Assembly (NCBI GenBank): GCA_024400835.1
Contig: JAKSMC010000004.1
Coordinates: forward strand, 1 to 64,000
DNA length: 64,000 nucleotides
Source: Bacteroidales bacterium
Lineage (GTDB): Bacteria > Bacteroidota > Bacteroidia > Bacteroidales > WCHB1-69
Direction of reading: 5' to 3'
Part shown: piece by piece, positions 40,074 to 48,843 of the stretch
Position numbering within the stretch: position 1 is the first letter of the stretch
Layout: each line of letters begins with the position of its first letter
The notes under the pieces: generated by a model
Seen by the model: the letters and a program-made list of their open reading frames with translations, nothing else
What the model was told of the DNA's origin: nothing
Database searches by the model: none
Made by a program: the position numbers and the translations under genes

Positions 40074-42128
<2,055 letters not shown>

Positions 42129-42193
42129 AAGGCCTATTGCCGAAAACAGATATATATTCAACTTTACCATGTTAAAAAAAAGCATGTTAGTAG

Positions 42194-42223
42194 TTGGATA
42201 TAAAGAAAAAAATACTATCTTTG
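42194..42223 (+). promoter_or_regulatory. Promoter ahead of the possible RNA and ribosomal operon
   Basis: TTG at 42194-42196, a 19-base spacer and TATCTTTG at 42216-42223. The match is near ideal and transcription should start around 42229. Confidence 0.75.
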
Positions 42224-42228
42224 CACGC

Positions 42229-42403
42229 TTTTTAGAAGTGAAATGAAAGAGCACTGCCGAGAGGCCTTTGACGTGGCTCTAACTACTTGATTTCACGGAC
42301 TGTATTGAAATATTGCAAAGATATGTGCGGGAGGTTTTCTTATAGTTATGAATGATAGAATAGTGGCATTTTCCTTCGAAAAGTGCGCTATTTTTTTTTT
42401 TTT
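42229..42403 (+). ncRNA. Possible structured RNA or ribosomal operon leader
   Basis: Between a strong promoter and rpmD lie about 175 bases without an ORF. GTGAAAT (42238-42244) pairs with ATTTCAC (42290-42296) and encloses AGAGCAC / GTgGCTCT (42248-42254 with 42273-42280) and a small GCC-GAGA-GGC hairpin. The 3' end has an imperfect hairpin (about 42358-42390) followed by 13 Ts, like a terminator or attenuator. It could be an independent small RNA or an attenuating leader of the r-protein operon. I do not recognise a known RNA family. Confidence 0.45.
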
Positions 42404-42445
42404 GATAATATCTAATAATTAAAATAACAAACAAAAATTGTAGGG

Positions 42446-42625
42446 ATGAAAAAGATTAAAATCACACAAGTAAAAAGCGCGGTTGACAGATGCACCCGCC
42501 AAAAAAGATCTTTAGAAGCATTAGGTTTACGTAAAATGCACCAAACAGTGGAACATGAGGCAACACCTCAAATCCTCGGCATCGTGGATTCCATCAAACA
42601 TTTGGTAACCGTAGAAGAATTATAA
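42446..42625 (+). CDS. rpmD: 50S ribosomal protein L30
   Basis: The 59-residue product MKKIKITQVKSAVD ... LEALGLRKMHQTV ... VDSIKHLVTVEEL is a standard bacterial L30. It is the first gene of the ribosomal block here. rpsE and the other usual upstream spc genes are absent, since ligA and the RNA region precede it. A 31-base gap separates it from rplO. Confidence 0.93.
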   Translation: MKKIKITQVKSAVDRCTRQKRSLEALGLRKMHQTVEHEATPQILGIVDSIKHLVTVEEL

Positions 42626-42656
42626 GATTTAATAACTATTGAAATTAAGGAAAGAA

Positions 42657-43127
42657 ATGAATTTGAACAACTTAAAACCAGCAGCAAACGCAACTCATAG
42701 TGAAAGAAGAATTGGTAGAGGTCAAGGTTCCGGTAAGGGTGGTACTTCTACACGTGGTAACAAAGGTGCACAGGCTCGTTCAGGTTACAGCCGTAAGATC
42801 GGTTTCGAAGGCGGCCAAATGCCTATCTACCGTATCCTTCCGAAGAGAGGTTTCAAGAATATTAACCGTGTTGAATATAACGCTATCAACATCAGCACTC
42901 TCCAAGTGCTTGCTGAAAAGAACATTACCGATGTAAACCTCGAAGTTCTCGTCGCTAACGGTCTCGCAAAGAAAAGCGATCGCATTGCAATCCTCGCAAA
43001 GGGCGAACTCAATGCAAAAGTCAATGTGACAGCTGACAAATTTTCTGCTAAAGCTAAGGAAGCTATCGAAAAGGTCGGTGGTACCGCAACCCTTCTTCAC
43101 GCTCCCGCTGAAACCACTGCAGAATAA
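42657..43127 (+). CDS. rplO: 50S ribosomal protein L15
   Basis: The start at 42657 (MNLNNLKPAANATHSERR) matches the family; an upstream in-frame start at 42639 adds six residues without support. The 156-residue product has the glycine/basic N-terminus (RIGRGQGSGKGGTSTRGNKG) and the L15 C-terminal core, with a short Ala/Glu-rich tail. L15 is a late-assembly 23S rRNA binder. Confidence 0.95.
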   Translation: MNLNNLKPAANATHSERRIGRGQGSGKGGTSTRGNKGAQARSGYSRKIGFEGGQMPIYRILPKRGFKNINRVEYNAINISTLQVLAEKNITDVNLEVLVANGLAKKSDRIAILAKGELNAKVNVTADKFSAKAKEAIEKVGGTATLLHAPAETTAE

Positions 43128-43151
43128 TTATCACTTTAAACAAAATTTCAA

Positions 43152-44510
43152 ATGAAAAAATTTATAGAAACGATAAAGAACATTTTCAGAATCGAAGATC
43201 TTCGTAAGAGAATCCTCTACACCCTCTTCATCATTCTGATTTACCGTTTTGGTGCGCATGTGGTGCTCCCCGGTATCAACCCCGGCGGCCTCTCCGCATT
43301 CTCCAGCGCTGCCCAAAAGGGTCTTCTCGGCATGCTGGACCTCTTCTCCGGTGGTGCATTCTCCAATGCCTCTATCTTCGCATTGGGTATCATGCCGTAC
43401 ATCTCCGCATCCATCGTTGTCCAATTGCTGACCTTGGCAGTTCCTTACTTCCAACGTCTCCAAAAGGAAGGTGAAAGCGGTCGTAAGAAAATCAACCAGA
43501 TTACCCGTTACCTCACAGTCCTCGTGTTGGCTATCCAGGCTCCTGCTTACATCGCAAACCTCGTAAACCAATTCCCGGCTGCTATCGCTCCTTCCATGCT
43601 CGAACACCACATCCTCGGTTTCTCAGCATTCGGATTCACAGCATTCATCCTCTTGATCTCCGCAACCCTCTTCATCATGTGGTTGGGTGAAAGAATCACA
43701 GACAATGGTATCGGTAATGGTATCTCTATGATCATTATGATTGGTATTATCGCTCGTTTCCCGTACGCTCTCAAAGCTGAGTTCGTCGCTCGTATTAGCG
43801 AAATGAACGGTGGCCCTATCGTATTCATCATCGAAATCGTCCTGATGATGGTCATCATCGGTCTCTGTATCCTCCTCGTTCAAGGTACTCGCCGCCTCCC
43901 TGTCCAATACGCTAAACGCGTTGTCGGCAACAAACAATATGGTGGCGTCCGCAACTACCTTCCTCTTAAGGTCAATGCAGCAGGCGTTATGCCGATCATC
44001 TTCGCTCAGGCTATCATGTTTATCCCGTTGACCTTCGTCAACATCACCACTGAATCTACCTCCGGTTTCTGGAGCAGCTTCATTGATTACAACAGATTCG
44101 GCTACAATGCTGTATTCTTCATCCTCATTATCCTCTTCACCTATTTCTATACGGCTATCACCATCAATCCTCAGCAGATTGCTGAAGACCTGAAGAAGAA
44201 CGGCGGTTTCATTCCTGGTACAAAACCTGGCAAACAAACTGCTGAACTCATCGATACCATCATGTCCCGCATCACACTTCCGGGCTCCATCTTCTTGGGT
44301 ATTGTTGCTGTTCTTCCGGCTATCGTCCGTATGTTCGGTGTCAACCAACAGTTCGCTCAATTCTTCGGCGGTACTTCCCTGCTGATTATGGTAGGCGTTG
44401 TTTTGGATACCCTCCAACAAATCGAAAGCCACTTGTTGATGAGACATTACGATGGTCTGACAAAATCCGGTAGAATCAAAGGCCGCATGGGTGGCGTTTA
44501 CGGAGGCTAA
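43152..44510 (+). CDS. secY: Preprotein translocase subunit SecY
   Basis: The 452-residue product, about ten membrane segments, is the channel of the Sec translocon. It has the LRKRILYTLFIILIYRFGAHV start, plug/TM2 region (ALGIMPYISASIVVQLLT), the cytoplasmic loop RLPVQYAKRVVGNKQYGG and the conserved GGTSLLIMVGVVLDTLQQIESHL near the end. It is in the usual place between rplO and map. Confidence 0.95.
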   Translation: MKKFIETIKNIFRIEDLRKRILYTLFIILIYRFGAHVVLPGINPGGLSAFSSAAQKGLLGMLDLFSGGAFSNASIFALGIMPYISASIVVQLLTLAVPYFQRLQKEGESGRKKINQITRYLTVLVLAIQAPAYIANLVNQFPAAIAPSMLEHHILGFSAFGFTAFILLISATLFIMWLGERITDNGIGNGISMIIMIGIIARFPYALKAEFVARISEMNGGPIVFIIEIVLMMVIIGLCILLVQGTRRLPVQYAKRVVGNKQYGGVRNYLPLKVNAAGVMPIIFAQAIMFIPLTFVNITTESTSGFWSSFIDYNRFGYNAVFFILIILFTYFYTAITINPQQIAEDLKKNGGFIPGTKPGKQTAELIDTIMSRITLPGSIFLGIVAVLPAIVRMFGVNQQFAQFFGGTSLLIMVGVVLDTLQQIESHLLMRHYDGLTKSGRIKGRMGGVYGG

Positions 44511-44535
44511 TAAATTATAGTATATATATATTAGA

Positions 44536-45333
44536 ATGTTCCGCAGAATTAAATATAAGAACGAAGCAGACTTTGAGAAGCTGAGACAGAGCGCTCACGT
44601 TGTGGCTGTCACTCTCGCAGAGGTCGCAAAGTGTATCAAACCGGGCGTGCCCCTTTTGTACCTCGACCAAATCGGAGAACAGTGCATCCGTGACCACCAT
44701 GCCGTCCCTTCCTTCAAGGGCTATGAAGGCTATCCGGCTTCTCTTTGCCTCTCCGTTAATGACGTTGTTGTTCACGGCATCCCCAAACAGGGTGACTATC
44801 TCACCGACGGTGATATCATCTCTGTTGACTGTGGCGCTTTGCTCAACGGATTTCACGGTGATTTCGCTTATACTTTCGCTGTCGGTGAGGTTGCTGAAGA
44901 CGTAAGACTCCTTATGGAACGCACTAAGCAATCTCTTAACGAAGCTATCAAGGTCGCCGTTGCCGGCAAGACCGTTGGTGACATCGGCTATACAGTGGAA
45001 AGCTATGTGGGACAATTCAACTACGGCGTGGTTCGCGAACTCTGCGGTCACGGTATCGGTAGAGACATGCACGAAAGACCTGATGTCTGCAACTATGGTC
45101 GCCCTAACACTGGAGACCGCCTGCAACACGGCATGTGCATCTGTATTGAGCCGATGATTACTTTGGGCAAACGTAATATCTATATGGAGAATGACGGTTG
45201 GACCATCCGCACGAAGGATCACAAACCCGCTGCTCATTACGAGCACCAAATGATTATCACTGACAAAGGTACTGAAGTTATCTCTTCTTACAAATTAATC
45301 GGTGAAGTATTAGGAACGACAGAACTTTATTAA
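44536..45333 (+). CDS. map: Methionine aminopeptidase, type I
   Basis: Removes the initiator Met from nascent proteins (EC 3.4.11.18). The 265-residue product has all five metal ligands visible: [18 protein letters not shown] (two Asp), [10 protein letters not shown] (His), CIEPMI (Glu) and HYEHQMIIT (Glu). In Bacteroidota map commonly lies between secY and infA in the spc/alpha region, as here. Confidence 0.94.
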
Positions 45334-45344
45334 AAAACATCAAT

Positions 45345-45566
45345 ATGCCAAAACAATCCTCATTCGATTTAGACGGTATCGTAACAGAAGCGCTCGGTAA
45401 TGGTCTTTACCGCGTTCAATTGGAAAGCGGTCATGAAATCATTGCCCACCTTTCTGGCAAAATGCGTTTGCACTACATCAAGATATTGCCTGGTGACAAA
45501 GTGCAGATTGCAATGTCTCCTTATGACCTCACCAAGGGAAGAATCACCTTCAGATACAAAGCATAA
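45345..45566 (+). CDS. infA: Translation initiation factor IF-1
   Basis: The 73-residue single OB-fold protein has [32 protein letters not shown] and [18 protein letters not shown], the classic IF-1 signature. It binds the A site of the 30S subunit. It begins 11 bases after map. Confidence 0.96.
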
Positions 45567-45627
45567 TCATTAGCGCCTACGGGCACAAAAAGAATAGAAA
45601 TTAATAAATAATAAACATTACAAAACA

Positions 45628-45744
45628 ATGAAAGTAAGAACATCAGTTAAAAAGAGATCCGAAGACTGTATCGTGGTGAAACGCCACGGAGTGGTTTATG
45701 TGATTAACAAGAAGAATCCTAAAATGAAACAACGTCAAGGCTAG
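45628..45744 (+). CDS. rpmJ: 50S ribosomal protein L36, zinc-free form
   Basis: The 38-residue product [21 protein letters not shown] ... NPKMKQRQG is L36. The CxxC...C...H zinc ribbon of the canonical protein is reduced to one Cys at position 14, so it is a C-minus, zinc-independent form as I recall for Bacteroidota. The ATG at 45628 is preceded by an A/T-rich leader with no Shine-Dalgarno. Confidence 0.95.
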
Positions 45745-45797
45745 GATTTCCGAGAAAGTAAATAATTATTAATTAACTAAATAAATATCAAAGTAAT

Positions 45798-46172
45798 ATG
45801 GCAAGAATTGCAGGTATTGATTTACCGAAAAACAAACATGGCGAAATCGGCTTGACTTACATTTACGGAATCGGCAGAAGCACTGCGCAAAAGATTCTCA
45901 CAAAGGCCGGTATCAGCTGGGAAAAGAAGGTAAATGAATGGAACGACGATGAATTGGCAGTAATCCGTGGATTGGTTAACGAGATGAAGGTGGAAGGACC
46001 ACTGAGATCCGAAGAACAAATGAACATCAAACGATTGATGGATATTGGCTGTTACAGAGGCATTCGTCACCGTTTGGGTTTACCGGTTCGTGGTCAGAGC
46101 ACCAAGAACAACGCCCGTACACGTAAGGGTCGTAAGAAAACTGTTGCAAACAAGAAGAAAGCAACCAAGTAG
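45798..46172 (+). CDS. rpsM: 30S ribosomal protein S13
   Basis: The 124-residue product [25 protein letters not shown] ... [22 protein letters not shown] is standard S13, with a helix-two-turn-helix core and a basic tail. It contacts the 50S subunit and the P-site tRNA. Confidence 0.96.
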
Positions 46173-46210
46173 TTATTAATCATCATTACGGATAGAGAAA
46201 ACATATAATT

Positions 46211-46600
46211 ATGGCAAAGAATACTAAAACATCCAAAAAGAAAGTTGTCAGAATTGATGCTTCTGGTAAAGCATTCATTTATGCATCTTTTAATAATGTT
46301 ATTGTTTCCCTTACCAACAACGACGGTCAGGTGATTTCCTGGTCTTCCGCTGGTAAAATGGGATACCGTGGTTCTAAGAAGAACACTCCGTATGCAGCTC
46401 AGATGGTCGCTCAAGACTGTGCAAAGGTTGCTTACGACCTCGGTCTTCGCAAAGTGAAAGTATACGTTAAAGGTCCGGGACAAGGTCGTGAATCTGCTAT
46501 CAGATCTATCAACACGACGGGCATCATCGTTGAAGAAATCACCGATGTTACTCCGCTTCCTCACAATGGTTGCCGTCCTCCGAAACACAGAAGAGTATAA
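46211..46600 (+). CDS. rpsK: 30S ribosomal protein S11
   Basis: The 129-residue product has the S11 core [44 protein letters not shown] and the C-terminal [11 protein letters not shown]. It forms part of the platform of the small subunit. It lies between rpsM and rpsD as usual. Confidence 0.96.
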
Positions 46601-46641
46601 TTTGAATATCATATTGTTTTAAAAATAGAAAATTTAGAATT

Positions 46642-47247
46642 ATGGCAAGATATACAGGACCTAAAACTAGAATCGCAAGAAAATTCAAGGAACCGATCTA
46701 CGGTCCCGATAAAAATTTCGAAAGAAAGAACTATGCTCCGGGTCAGCATGGTCAAAGCAGAAGACGTTCCAAACTCTCTGAGTATGGTATGCAGCTTCAG
46801 GAAAAACAAAAAGCAAAATACACATACGGTATGCTCGAACGCCAGTTCCGTAAGATTTTCCAATTGGCAGCTCGTAAGAAAGGTGTCACCGGTCAGAATT
46901 TGATGCAACTCATCGAATCCCGTCTCGACAACGTCGTATTCCGTTTGGGTATCGCTCCTTCCCGCGCAGCAGCTCGTCAGCTCGTCAGCCATCGTCACAT
47001 TTCTGTGAACGGCCAGATCTGCAACGTTCCTTCTCGTCTCCTCGTTCCTGGTGACACTGTAGAAGTACGTGAACGCTCACAAGCTATGGAAGTCATCACC
47101 AACTCTTTGAGTGGCAAAGCAATGAACCACGCTTGGTTGGAATGGGATGGCAACCTCATGGTTGGTAAATTCATGAACTACCCGCAGAGAGAAGAAATTC
47201 CTGAGACAATTAACGAACAAGCAATCGTCGAATTGTACTCTAAATAG
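46642..47247 (+). CDS. rpsD: 30S ribosomal protein S4
   Basis: The 201-residue product starts [15 protein letters not shown], has an S4 RNA-binding domain (about 92-155, [27 protein letters not shown]) and lacks N-terminal zinc Cys residues, the C-minus form. It is a primary 16S binder. In many bacteria S4 autoregulates the alpha operon; no such site is evident here. Confidence 0.95.
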
Positions 47248-47257
47248 TGATCCCTAA

Positions 47258-47320
47258 TCTGTGACCTGTGAATTGTGTAATGCAACTCACAGCTCACAGT
47301 TCACAGCTCACAGTTCACAT
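47258..47320. repeat. Nine-unit heptad array between rpsD and rpoA
   Basis: TCTGTGA, CCTGTGA, ATTGTGT, AATGCAA, CTCACAG, CTCACAG, TTCACAG, CTCACAG, TTCACAT. The first units are complementary to the last, so the transcript can fold into a long imperfect hairpin. It is inserted in an otherwise compact ribosomal operon, 31 bases before rpoA. Confidence 0.75.
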
Positions 47321-47350
47321 CGATCATTAATAACATTAAAAACAAATAAA

Positions 47351-48346
47351 ATGGCAATATTAACATTTCAAAAACCGGATAAGGTCATCATGAATGAGGC
47401 CGACGATTTTCACGGCATATTTGAATTTCGTCCGTTGCAACAGGGCTACGGCGTTACCGTAGGTAATGCTCTCCGCCGCGTGCTGCTCTCTTCATTGGAA
47501 GGCTATGCCATTACTTCTGTTAAAATCACGGGCGTTGCTCAGCAATTCTCTTCAATACCCGGCGTTATGGAAGATGTTATCGACATCGTCCTTAACCTCA
47601 AACAGGTTCGTTTCAAGAATAAAATTGAAAATAATAACGCTGAGAAAGCTACCATCGTAATTACTGGTCAAGATAAGTTCACGGCCGGTGACATGAACCG
47701 CTATCTCAACTTTTTCCAAGTTCTCAATCCTGATCAGTTGATCTGCCGTATGGATCCCACCGTACGTCTCGAAATGGAAATCACGATTGACAAAGGCCGC
47801 GGCTATGTGCCAGTTGAAGACAACCGCACACTGCACGAAGGCATCGATGTTATCGCTATCGATTCCATTCACACTCCGATCAAGAATGTGAAATATTACA
47901 TCGAACCGTACCGTGTTGAACAGAAGACCGACTTCGAAAAACTCATCATGGAAATCGAAACCGATGGTTCCATCCATCCGAAAGAAGCGTTGAAAGAGGC
48001 TGCTAAAATCCTCATCCAACATTTCGCTCTTTTCTCTGATGACAAAATCACGTTGGACACTCCTGAACAACCAGCAGCAAGTGAAGACTTCGATGAAGAC
48101 TCTATGCTCATCCGCCAAGTCCTCAAATCCAAGCTCATTGACATGGACCTCTCTGTTCGCGCATTGAACTGCCTGAAGTCCGCAGAGCTTGAAACTCTCG
48201 GTGACCTTGTGGCTATCCATAAGGCTGACCTTTTGAAATTCCGTAACTTTGGTAAGAAATCCCTCCTCGAGTTGGAAAATCTTGTCAAATCCAAAGGTTT
48301 GGAATTCGGTATGAATATTCAAAAATATAAATTAGATAAGGATTAA
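47351..48346 (+). CDS. rpoA: RNA polymerase subunit alpha
   Basis: The start at 47351 ([12 protein letters not shown]) is the family start; an in-frame ATG at 47261 would encode the repeat array. The 331-residue product has the assembly domain (residues ~1-230; [27 protein letters not shown]) and the alpha-CTD (about 262-325; [39 protein letters not shown]). Complete. Confidence 0.97.
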
Positions 48347-48351
48347 GAACA

Positions 48352-48843
48352 ATGAGACACGCTAAAAGTATCAATCATTTAGGAAGAACAGATGCCCATA
48401 GAAAGGCTATGATGTCCAATATGGCTACATCTCTCATCATGCATAAAAGAATTTCCACGACTTTGGCAAAGGCAAAAGAACTGAGAAAATATGTTGAACC
48501 TCTGGTGACACGTAGCAAAAACGATACTACTCATTCCAGACGTATGGTTTTCTCTCAGCTTCAAAACAAATTTGCCGTTACCGAACTCTTCAGAGAAATC
48601 GCTCCGAAGATCGCTGCTCGCCCGGGTGGTTACACACGTATCCTCAAAACCGGCTTCCGTAAAGGCGATAACGCTGAGATGTGCATCATCGAATTCGTTG
48701 ACTATAACGAAACTTACACCGTAGAAGGTGGTAAGAAGAAAACAACAAGAACAAGACGTAGCAGCAAGAAAGCTGCTGCTGAAGTCGCTGAAACCGTCGC
48801 AGAAGTTGCTGAAACTGCTGCTGAGGCTCCCGCTGCTGAATAG
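48352..48843 (+). CDS. rplQ: 50S ribosomal protein L17
   Basis: The 163-residue product has the L17 core ([44 protein letters not shown]). The core ends near residue 117 and is followed by a ~45-residue basic then Ala/Glu-rich tail ([19 protein letters not shown]). It is the last gene of the block, five bases after rpoA, followed by a strong terminator. Confidence 0.95.

Follow-up and report, generated by a model that had tools for sequence, protein, structure and literature searches.

What kind of RNA stands at the head of a ribosomal protein operon that starts in its middle? In the window (the 64,000 nt stretch of the Bacteroidales contig JAKSMC010000004.1, assembly GCA_024400835.1, analyzed here), the gap between ligA (40086-42128) and rpmD (42446-42625) holds a promoter, an RNA of ~175 nt, and a hairpin followed by a 13-T tract. 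The original prediction, made from the window alone, had placed exactly these elements before rpmD, and all of them are present there (Table 1). The -7 box follows TAnnTTTG, the Bacteroidetes consensus as quoted in PMC7366714. Across the 48 aligned loci described below, TAnnTTTGC was exact in 47 and carried one mismatch in the other (L120), and the 5' end of the leader probably lies within a few bases after 42223. We found no plus-strand open reading frame of 35 codons or more inside the leader. Folding the window copy as a single sequence gave a stability not above that of shuffled sequences (z -0.24), and the leader hairpin at 42359-42392 was absent from the output of a generic terminator scan.

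Table 1. Features of the ligA-rpmD gap and the genes that follow it (positions in the window)
Feature	Position	Strand	Details	Basis
Promoter	42194..42223	+	TTGG 42194-42197; TAnnTTTG box TATCTTTG 42216-42223	
Leader RNA	42224..42403	+	~175 nt	Match to model R1, 42223-42399; 48-locus alignment
Proposed antiterminator P1	42228..42383	+	42228-42238 with 42374-42383; competes for the terminator 3' arm	
Hairpin H1	42238..42296	+	42238-42244 with 42290-42296 (GUGAAAU : AUUUCAC)	
Proposed antiterminator P3	42279..42367	+	42279-42285 with 42361-42367; competes for the terminator 5' arm	
Nearly invariant core	42281..42299	+	AACUACUUGAUUUCACGGA; candidate binding site	15/19 columns invariant
Hairpin P4	42298..42347	+	42298-42304 with 42341-42347	
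Intrinsic terminator	42359..42403	+	Hairpin 42359-42392; 13 T 42391-42403	
Downstream genes	42446..48843	+	rpmD-rplO-secY-map-infA-rpmJ-rpsM-rpsK-rpsD-rpoA-rplQ	NCBIfam equivalogs for 9/11

Several other features of the region were observed. A minus-strand open reading frame of 51 codons (42279-42434) overlaps the leader, and a minus-strand TATCTTTG box at 42323 falls within that frame. A short AGGCCT hairpin lies at the ligA stop codon (42121-42135) and is terminator-like on the minus strand. Many of the window's TAnnTTTG sites, on both strands, run on as a GC-rich GCxGCC/GCACGC and then a run of T or A; the first bases of the leader may therefore be a general promoter feature. A search for tRNA and tmRNA genes in the window returned none.

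The genes around the RNA were named by NCBIfam equivalogs (ligA and then rpmD, rplO, secY, map, infA, rpsM, rpsD, rpoA, and rplQ), and rpmJ and rpsK were identified by reading their translations together with the gene order. The order of the rpmD-rplQ block is kept in relatives. We located rpsE (Pfam PF00333) on contig 3, at the end of the other half of the spc operon, preceded by reading frames that we read as rplF and rplR. The only rpmD match of the genome is the one in the window, and the expectation that the upstream spc genes lie elsewhere was thus borne out.

The RNA recurs in relatives. A DNA search of 60 of them returned the leader together with rpmD from 27 of the 35 same-genus genomes, at 72-80% identity (counting G019, whose match comes in two pieces). 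A covariance model, R1, was built on 28 loci and matched 52 of the 104 genomes of the family, in 6 of its 17 genera; across the order, it matched 5 of 393 sampled genomes, every one of them in the window's family. Both of these large searches were run with stricter filters, under which weak matches are lost. Within the window's own genus, the RNA is present in all 32 genomes in which rpmD was matched, and the seven genomes lacking it are likewise without an rpmD match. A pattern scan of named genomes returned 18 stretches; every title reads uncultured Bacteroidales or Bacteroidetes, and six name a ruminant's stomach. From the 52 family matches, we assembled an alignment of 48 loci (A2) that leaves out G428, G429, G430, and G032. 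The conservation within the genus and the two-sided compensatory changes among relatives confirm that the RNA in the window is real beyond chance.

We then asked which helices the alignment supports. On A2, the hairpins H1 and P4 and the terminator were jointly paired in 90.7% of cells, compared with 37-49% when their arms were slid by 1-3 columns, and their covariation score was 0.140 in register and 0.032-0.063 when slid. Two-sided changes were found in 24 cells versus 10.0 in shuffles, although sliding the arms by -1 gave 25. Pairs with a two-sided change numbered six, versus 4.5 in shuffles, a count that 67 of 500 shuffles reached; further pair types (21) were not above the shuffled value of 21.4. 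Taken helix by helix, the terminator was paired in 90.5% of cells with two-sided changes at 4 of its 13 pairs, P4 in 85.4% with two-sided changes at 2 of 7 pairs, and H1 in 96.1%, H1 being almost invariant and having no two-sided change. RNAalifold on the 28 own-genus loci returned zero two-sided changes, so the evidence for covariation comes from other genera.

A permutation of arms among clades, in which the pairing energy of each clade's own arms was compared with that of other clades' arms, singled out the same two helices. The counts that follow are not strict probabilities, because the subgroups of the window's genus (g1a-g1d) were drawn by eye after the alignment had been viewed, and the loci are related rather than independent: the terminator (8 of 362880 permutations as good) and P4 (481/362880) stand out, P2 (2365/362880) and P3 (16721/362880) are weakly supported, and P1 (33924/362880) and H1 (237024/362880) are unsupported. 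Covariation thus supports the predicted RNA structure for the terminator and P4, and the outcome that would have spoken against a structured RNA, an absence of covariation in relatives, did not occur.

In all 48 loci examined, rpmD lies downstream on the same strand. For 28 of these loci, rpmD formed part of the DNA query. Among the 20 further loci, 19 of them from other genera, tblastn found rpmD after the RNA in 19; the remaining locus lies close to a contig end, and rpmD was recognized there by its start sequence. The distance from the end of the T tract to the ATG is 33-46 nt in the first 28 loci. In the 19 further loci with the start pattern, 34-44 nt separate the end of the model match from the ATG; at L124, rpmD was missed by this pattern and found by tblastn. 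Upstream, the neighboring genes fell into 26 families among the 44 loci in which a reading frame was found, and ligA was the neighbor in 4 of the 48. The varied upstream neighbors and the constant rpmD indicate that the RNA travels with rpmD, not with the preceding gene.

The RNA is also tied to the break in the operon. We found rpmD in 89 of the 104 family genomes, 50 of the 89 having the RNA. At the 39 rpmD loci without a model match, rpsE lies 15-75 nt before rpmD in 19 and does not in 20. The rpsE query found nothing in 643-1400 nt of upstream DNA at any of the 48 aligned RNA loci, whereas the same query finds 19 of the 39 comparison loci. Hence, the RNA is present in 48 of the 68 examined loci without rpsE upstream and in 0 of the 19 with it, a count that leaves out G428-G430, which have both the RNA and rpmD. 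In a SecY tree of 28 rows, the split loci form one group of 21 (support 100/99), consistent with a single split. The 20 split-operon relatives without a model match live without the full RNA; by eye, all 20 have a TAnnTTTG-type site no more than 330 nt before rpmD, and in g210 and g209 faint remnants of the RNA scored at the expected place (E 0.0022 to 1.1). That a structured RNA heads a shortened ribosomal operon is supported on three counts: its conservation, its linkage to rpmD, and its covariation.

Could the upstream part of this RNA hold the terminator open? The two proposed antiterminator helices, P1 and P3, were paired in 85.0% of cells (34-51% when slid) and had 13 two-sided cells versus 7.4 in shuffles, with one slide reaching 17; P3 by itself was paired in 89.6% of cells and showed no two-sided change. 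On average, the upstream RNA gained -14.1 kcal/mol by pairing with the terminator arms, compared with -7.7 kcal/mol for dinucleotide shuffles, and 46 of 48 leaders did better than their shuffles. As the alignment opens with bases of the -7 box or just after it, the calculation was rerun without the first 5 nt; the energies were then -12.0 versus -7.5 kcal/mol, and 44 of 48 leaders paired better than shuffles. In this rerun, no more than 5% of shuffles attained the gain of the real leader in 19 of the 48 cases, and the best fold was free of the terminator in 35 of the 48. For the window copy so trimmed, the antiterminator pairing was not above shuffles (40 of 60 as good). The whole antiterminator paired about equally well with its own and with other clades' terminators (62458 of 362880 permutations; 319 of 720 at the genus level), so this complementarity represents conserved sequence and not demonstrated co-evolution. 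Across the family as a whole, an antiterminator appears likely.

We also looked for a promoter beyond the terminator. Between the terminator and codon 20 of rpmD, an exact second TAnnTTTG was found at only 4 of 48 loci, all four of which share a site beginning 13 nt upstream of the ATG. A promoter-like site with one mismatch lies near rpmD in 40 of 48 leaders, a frequency that we took to be chance in AT-rich DNA. Unless a promoter was missed, polymerase must pass this terminator to transcribe an essential operon, a situation that calls for regulation.

We propose that the RNA is probably a cis-acting 5' leader, an attenuator, of the downstream half of the spc-alpha block. The proposal builds on features that the comparison of loci establishes, namely the promoter motif, the conserved RNA, the compensatory changes in the terminator and P4, the linkage to rpmD, and the restriction to split-operon loci. 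Beyond these, we infer that termination is conditional, with an ON fold and a sensor. One promoter would give rise to the ~175 nt RNA, and polymerase would either stop at the terminator, ~40 nt before rpmD, or continue into rpmD and on through rplQ. The OFF state would consist of H1, P4, and the terminator. When the switch is ON, the 3' arm of the terminator would be held by the leader's 5' end (P1) and the 5' arm of the terminator by the GYAACU segment (P3). The invariant core would be the binding place of the sensor, most likely a ribosomal protein of the operon.

The original prediction had left the choice between an attenuator and an independent small RNA. A trans-acting small RNA, for example, a divergent 6S RNA, with rpmD read by leak-through or from an unseen promoter, would fit the fixed size of ~175 nt, the RNA's own promoter and terminator, and the invariant core, and the RNA ends are able to pair together in several loci. 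Size and pairing ends are likenesses to 6S RNA in particular, and the lack of a match to RF00013 or RF01685 in the genome or the window is a weak test, since RF00013 was silent in the Bacteroides control and RF01685 in every control. The new RNA, by contrast, is linked to a single gene in a single operon arrangement: it keeps its place before rpmD in 48 of 48 loci despite a changing upstream neighbor, it was found at split-operon loci alone, and the stretch after its terminator lacks a convincing second promoter. The attenuator is favored on these grounds, and we consider a small RNA unlikely.

A structured 5' UTR might instead carry a constitutive, partly efficient terminator that sets the level of the operon without sensing anything. 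The terminator is indeed the best supported helix, and the 20 split relatives manage without a model match; however, a 19 nt core with 15 invariant columns exceeds what a fixed-rate terminator needs, and the pairing of both terminator arms with the upstream RNA exceeds that in shuffles, so that this reading, too, appears improbable to us. Attenuation through a translated leader peptide is very hard to credit: a 15-codon reading frame occurs in several own-genus leaders, including that of the window, but it is not conserved across leaders: its ATG is present in 29 of 48, and the predicted peptides have 2 to 37 residues.

If the RNA is an attenuator, its core is the natural place to look for what it senses. 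The core, AACU-NNN-UUGAUUUCACGGA, keeps 15 of its 19 columns invariant across 48 loci and 6 genera. This invariance exceeds the needs of pairing and suggests a bound protein, and it is reasonable to suppose that the sensed ligand is a ribosomal protein. By the rule of Eckert and Weinberg 2020 (PMC7247131), the best guess at a ligand is a product of the operon that serves other known leaders as ligand; by that analogy, our guess would be S4. A 24-base stretch with the core did not resemble E. coli rRNA more than shuffles did (40 of 60 as good for 16S and 60 of 60 for 23S), and a search for 16S in the window's own genome gave no match. The known S4 leader of the class, S4-Bacteroidia (RF03139), was found in an outgroup family (L211, 2739-2771, minus strand) in a 112 nt gap before rpsD. 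It was found in 0 of 11 scanned operon stretches of the window's family, 10 of which reach rpsD, and the rpsK-rpsD gaps there are 27-45 nt. Because RF03139 is missing from intact operons as well as from split ones, its loss alone does not link S4 with the new RNA.

We compared the leader with known RNAs. Rfam gave no family match over the whole window, eight matches at chance level (E 2.2-9) for the leader at a permissive threshold, and nothing for the leader in seven loci with the RNA; the novelty suggested originally, Bacteroidales motifs included, held in this comparison. RF03139 is not the same RNA: it spans 34 positions and lies between rpsK and rpsD in the outgroup, while the new RNA precedes rpmD, and it had no match in the window or in the loci with the RNA. 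Bacteroidales-1 (RF01693) has a similar length (179 model positions) and comes from the same bacterial order, but the conserved sequence of its members differs by eye from that of the new RNA. Its model had no match in the genome, although it does match Bacteroides ihuae and 26 of 119 genomes of the order. Ribosomal leaders as described in PMC7247131, S4-Bacteroidia among them, are likewise structured, covarying RNAs 5' of ribosomal protein operons, and conditional terminators are among the mechanisms listed there; the present RNA differs in sitting before rpmD, a gene without a leader in Table 1 of that source. In the excerpts covered by our literature search, no description of a leader before rpmD was found. 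The kind of element, a ribosomal leader with a terminator, is already known, and this leader before rpmD is new.

A wider scenario can be drawn, which we offer tentatively and regard as rather doubtful. The spc operon would have broken between rpsE and rpmD in one ancestor, and the orphaned half would have gained an RNA switch that senses a ribosomal protein (S4 or another product) and tunes eleven genes, including those for SecY, IF1, and RNA polymerase alpha. All this would have taken place in a family whose scanned operons gave no match to the usual S4 leader before rpsD. The leader itself would be a datable birth of a regulatory RNA, as the operon split looks single and the RNA lies only on the split side; its origin can be placed on a tree. 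It would also give uncultured Bacteroidales a leader of the rpmD block that had not been described before, one through which a ribosomal attenuator would control RNA polymerase alpha and SecY.

Two observations concern rpmD loci without the RNA. In genus g218 (L179-L189, no model match), the DNA before rpmD has conserved sequences of its own, for example AACTCCGAAAA or AGTTCCGAAA followed by TAGTAATAACTTAATA, and no T tract; judged by eye, these are possibly another type of leader. At two loci with an intact operon (L163 and L172, genomes G431 and G443), the 69-75 nt gap between rpsE and rpmD contains a promoter-like TAGATTTGCACG site and then a T run just before rpmD; an internal promoter may predate the split.
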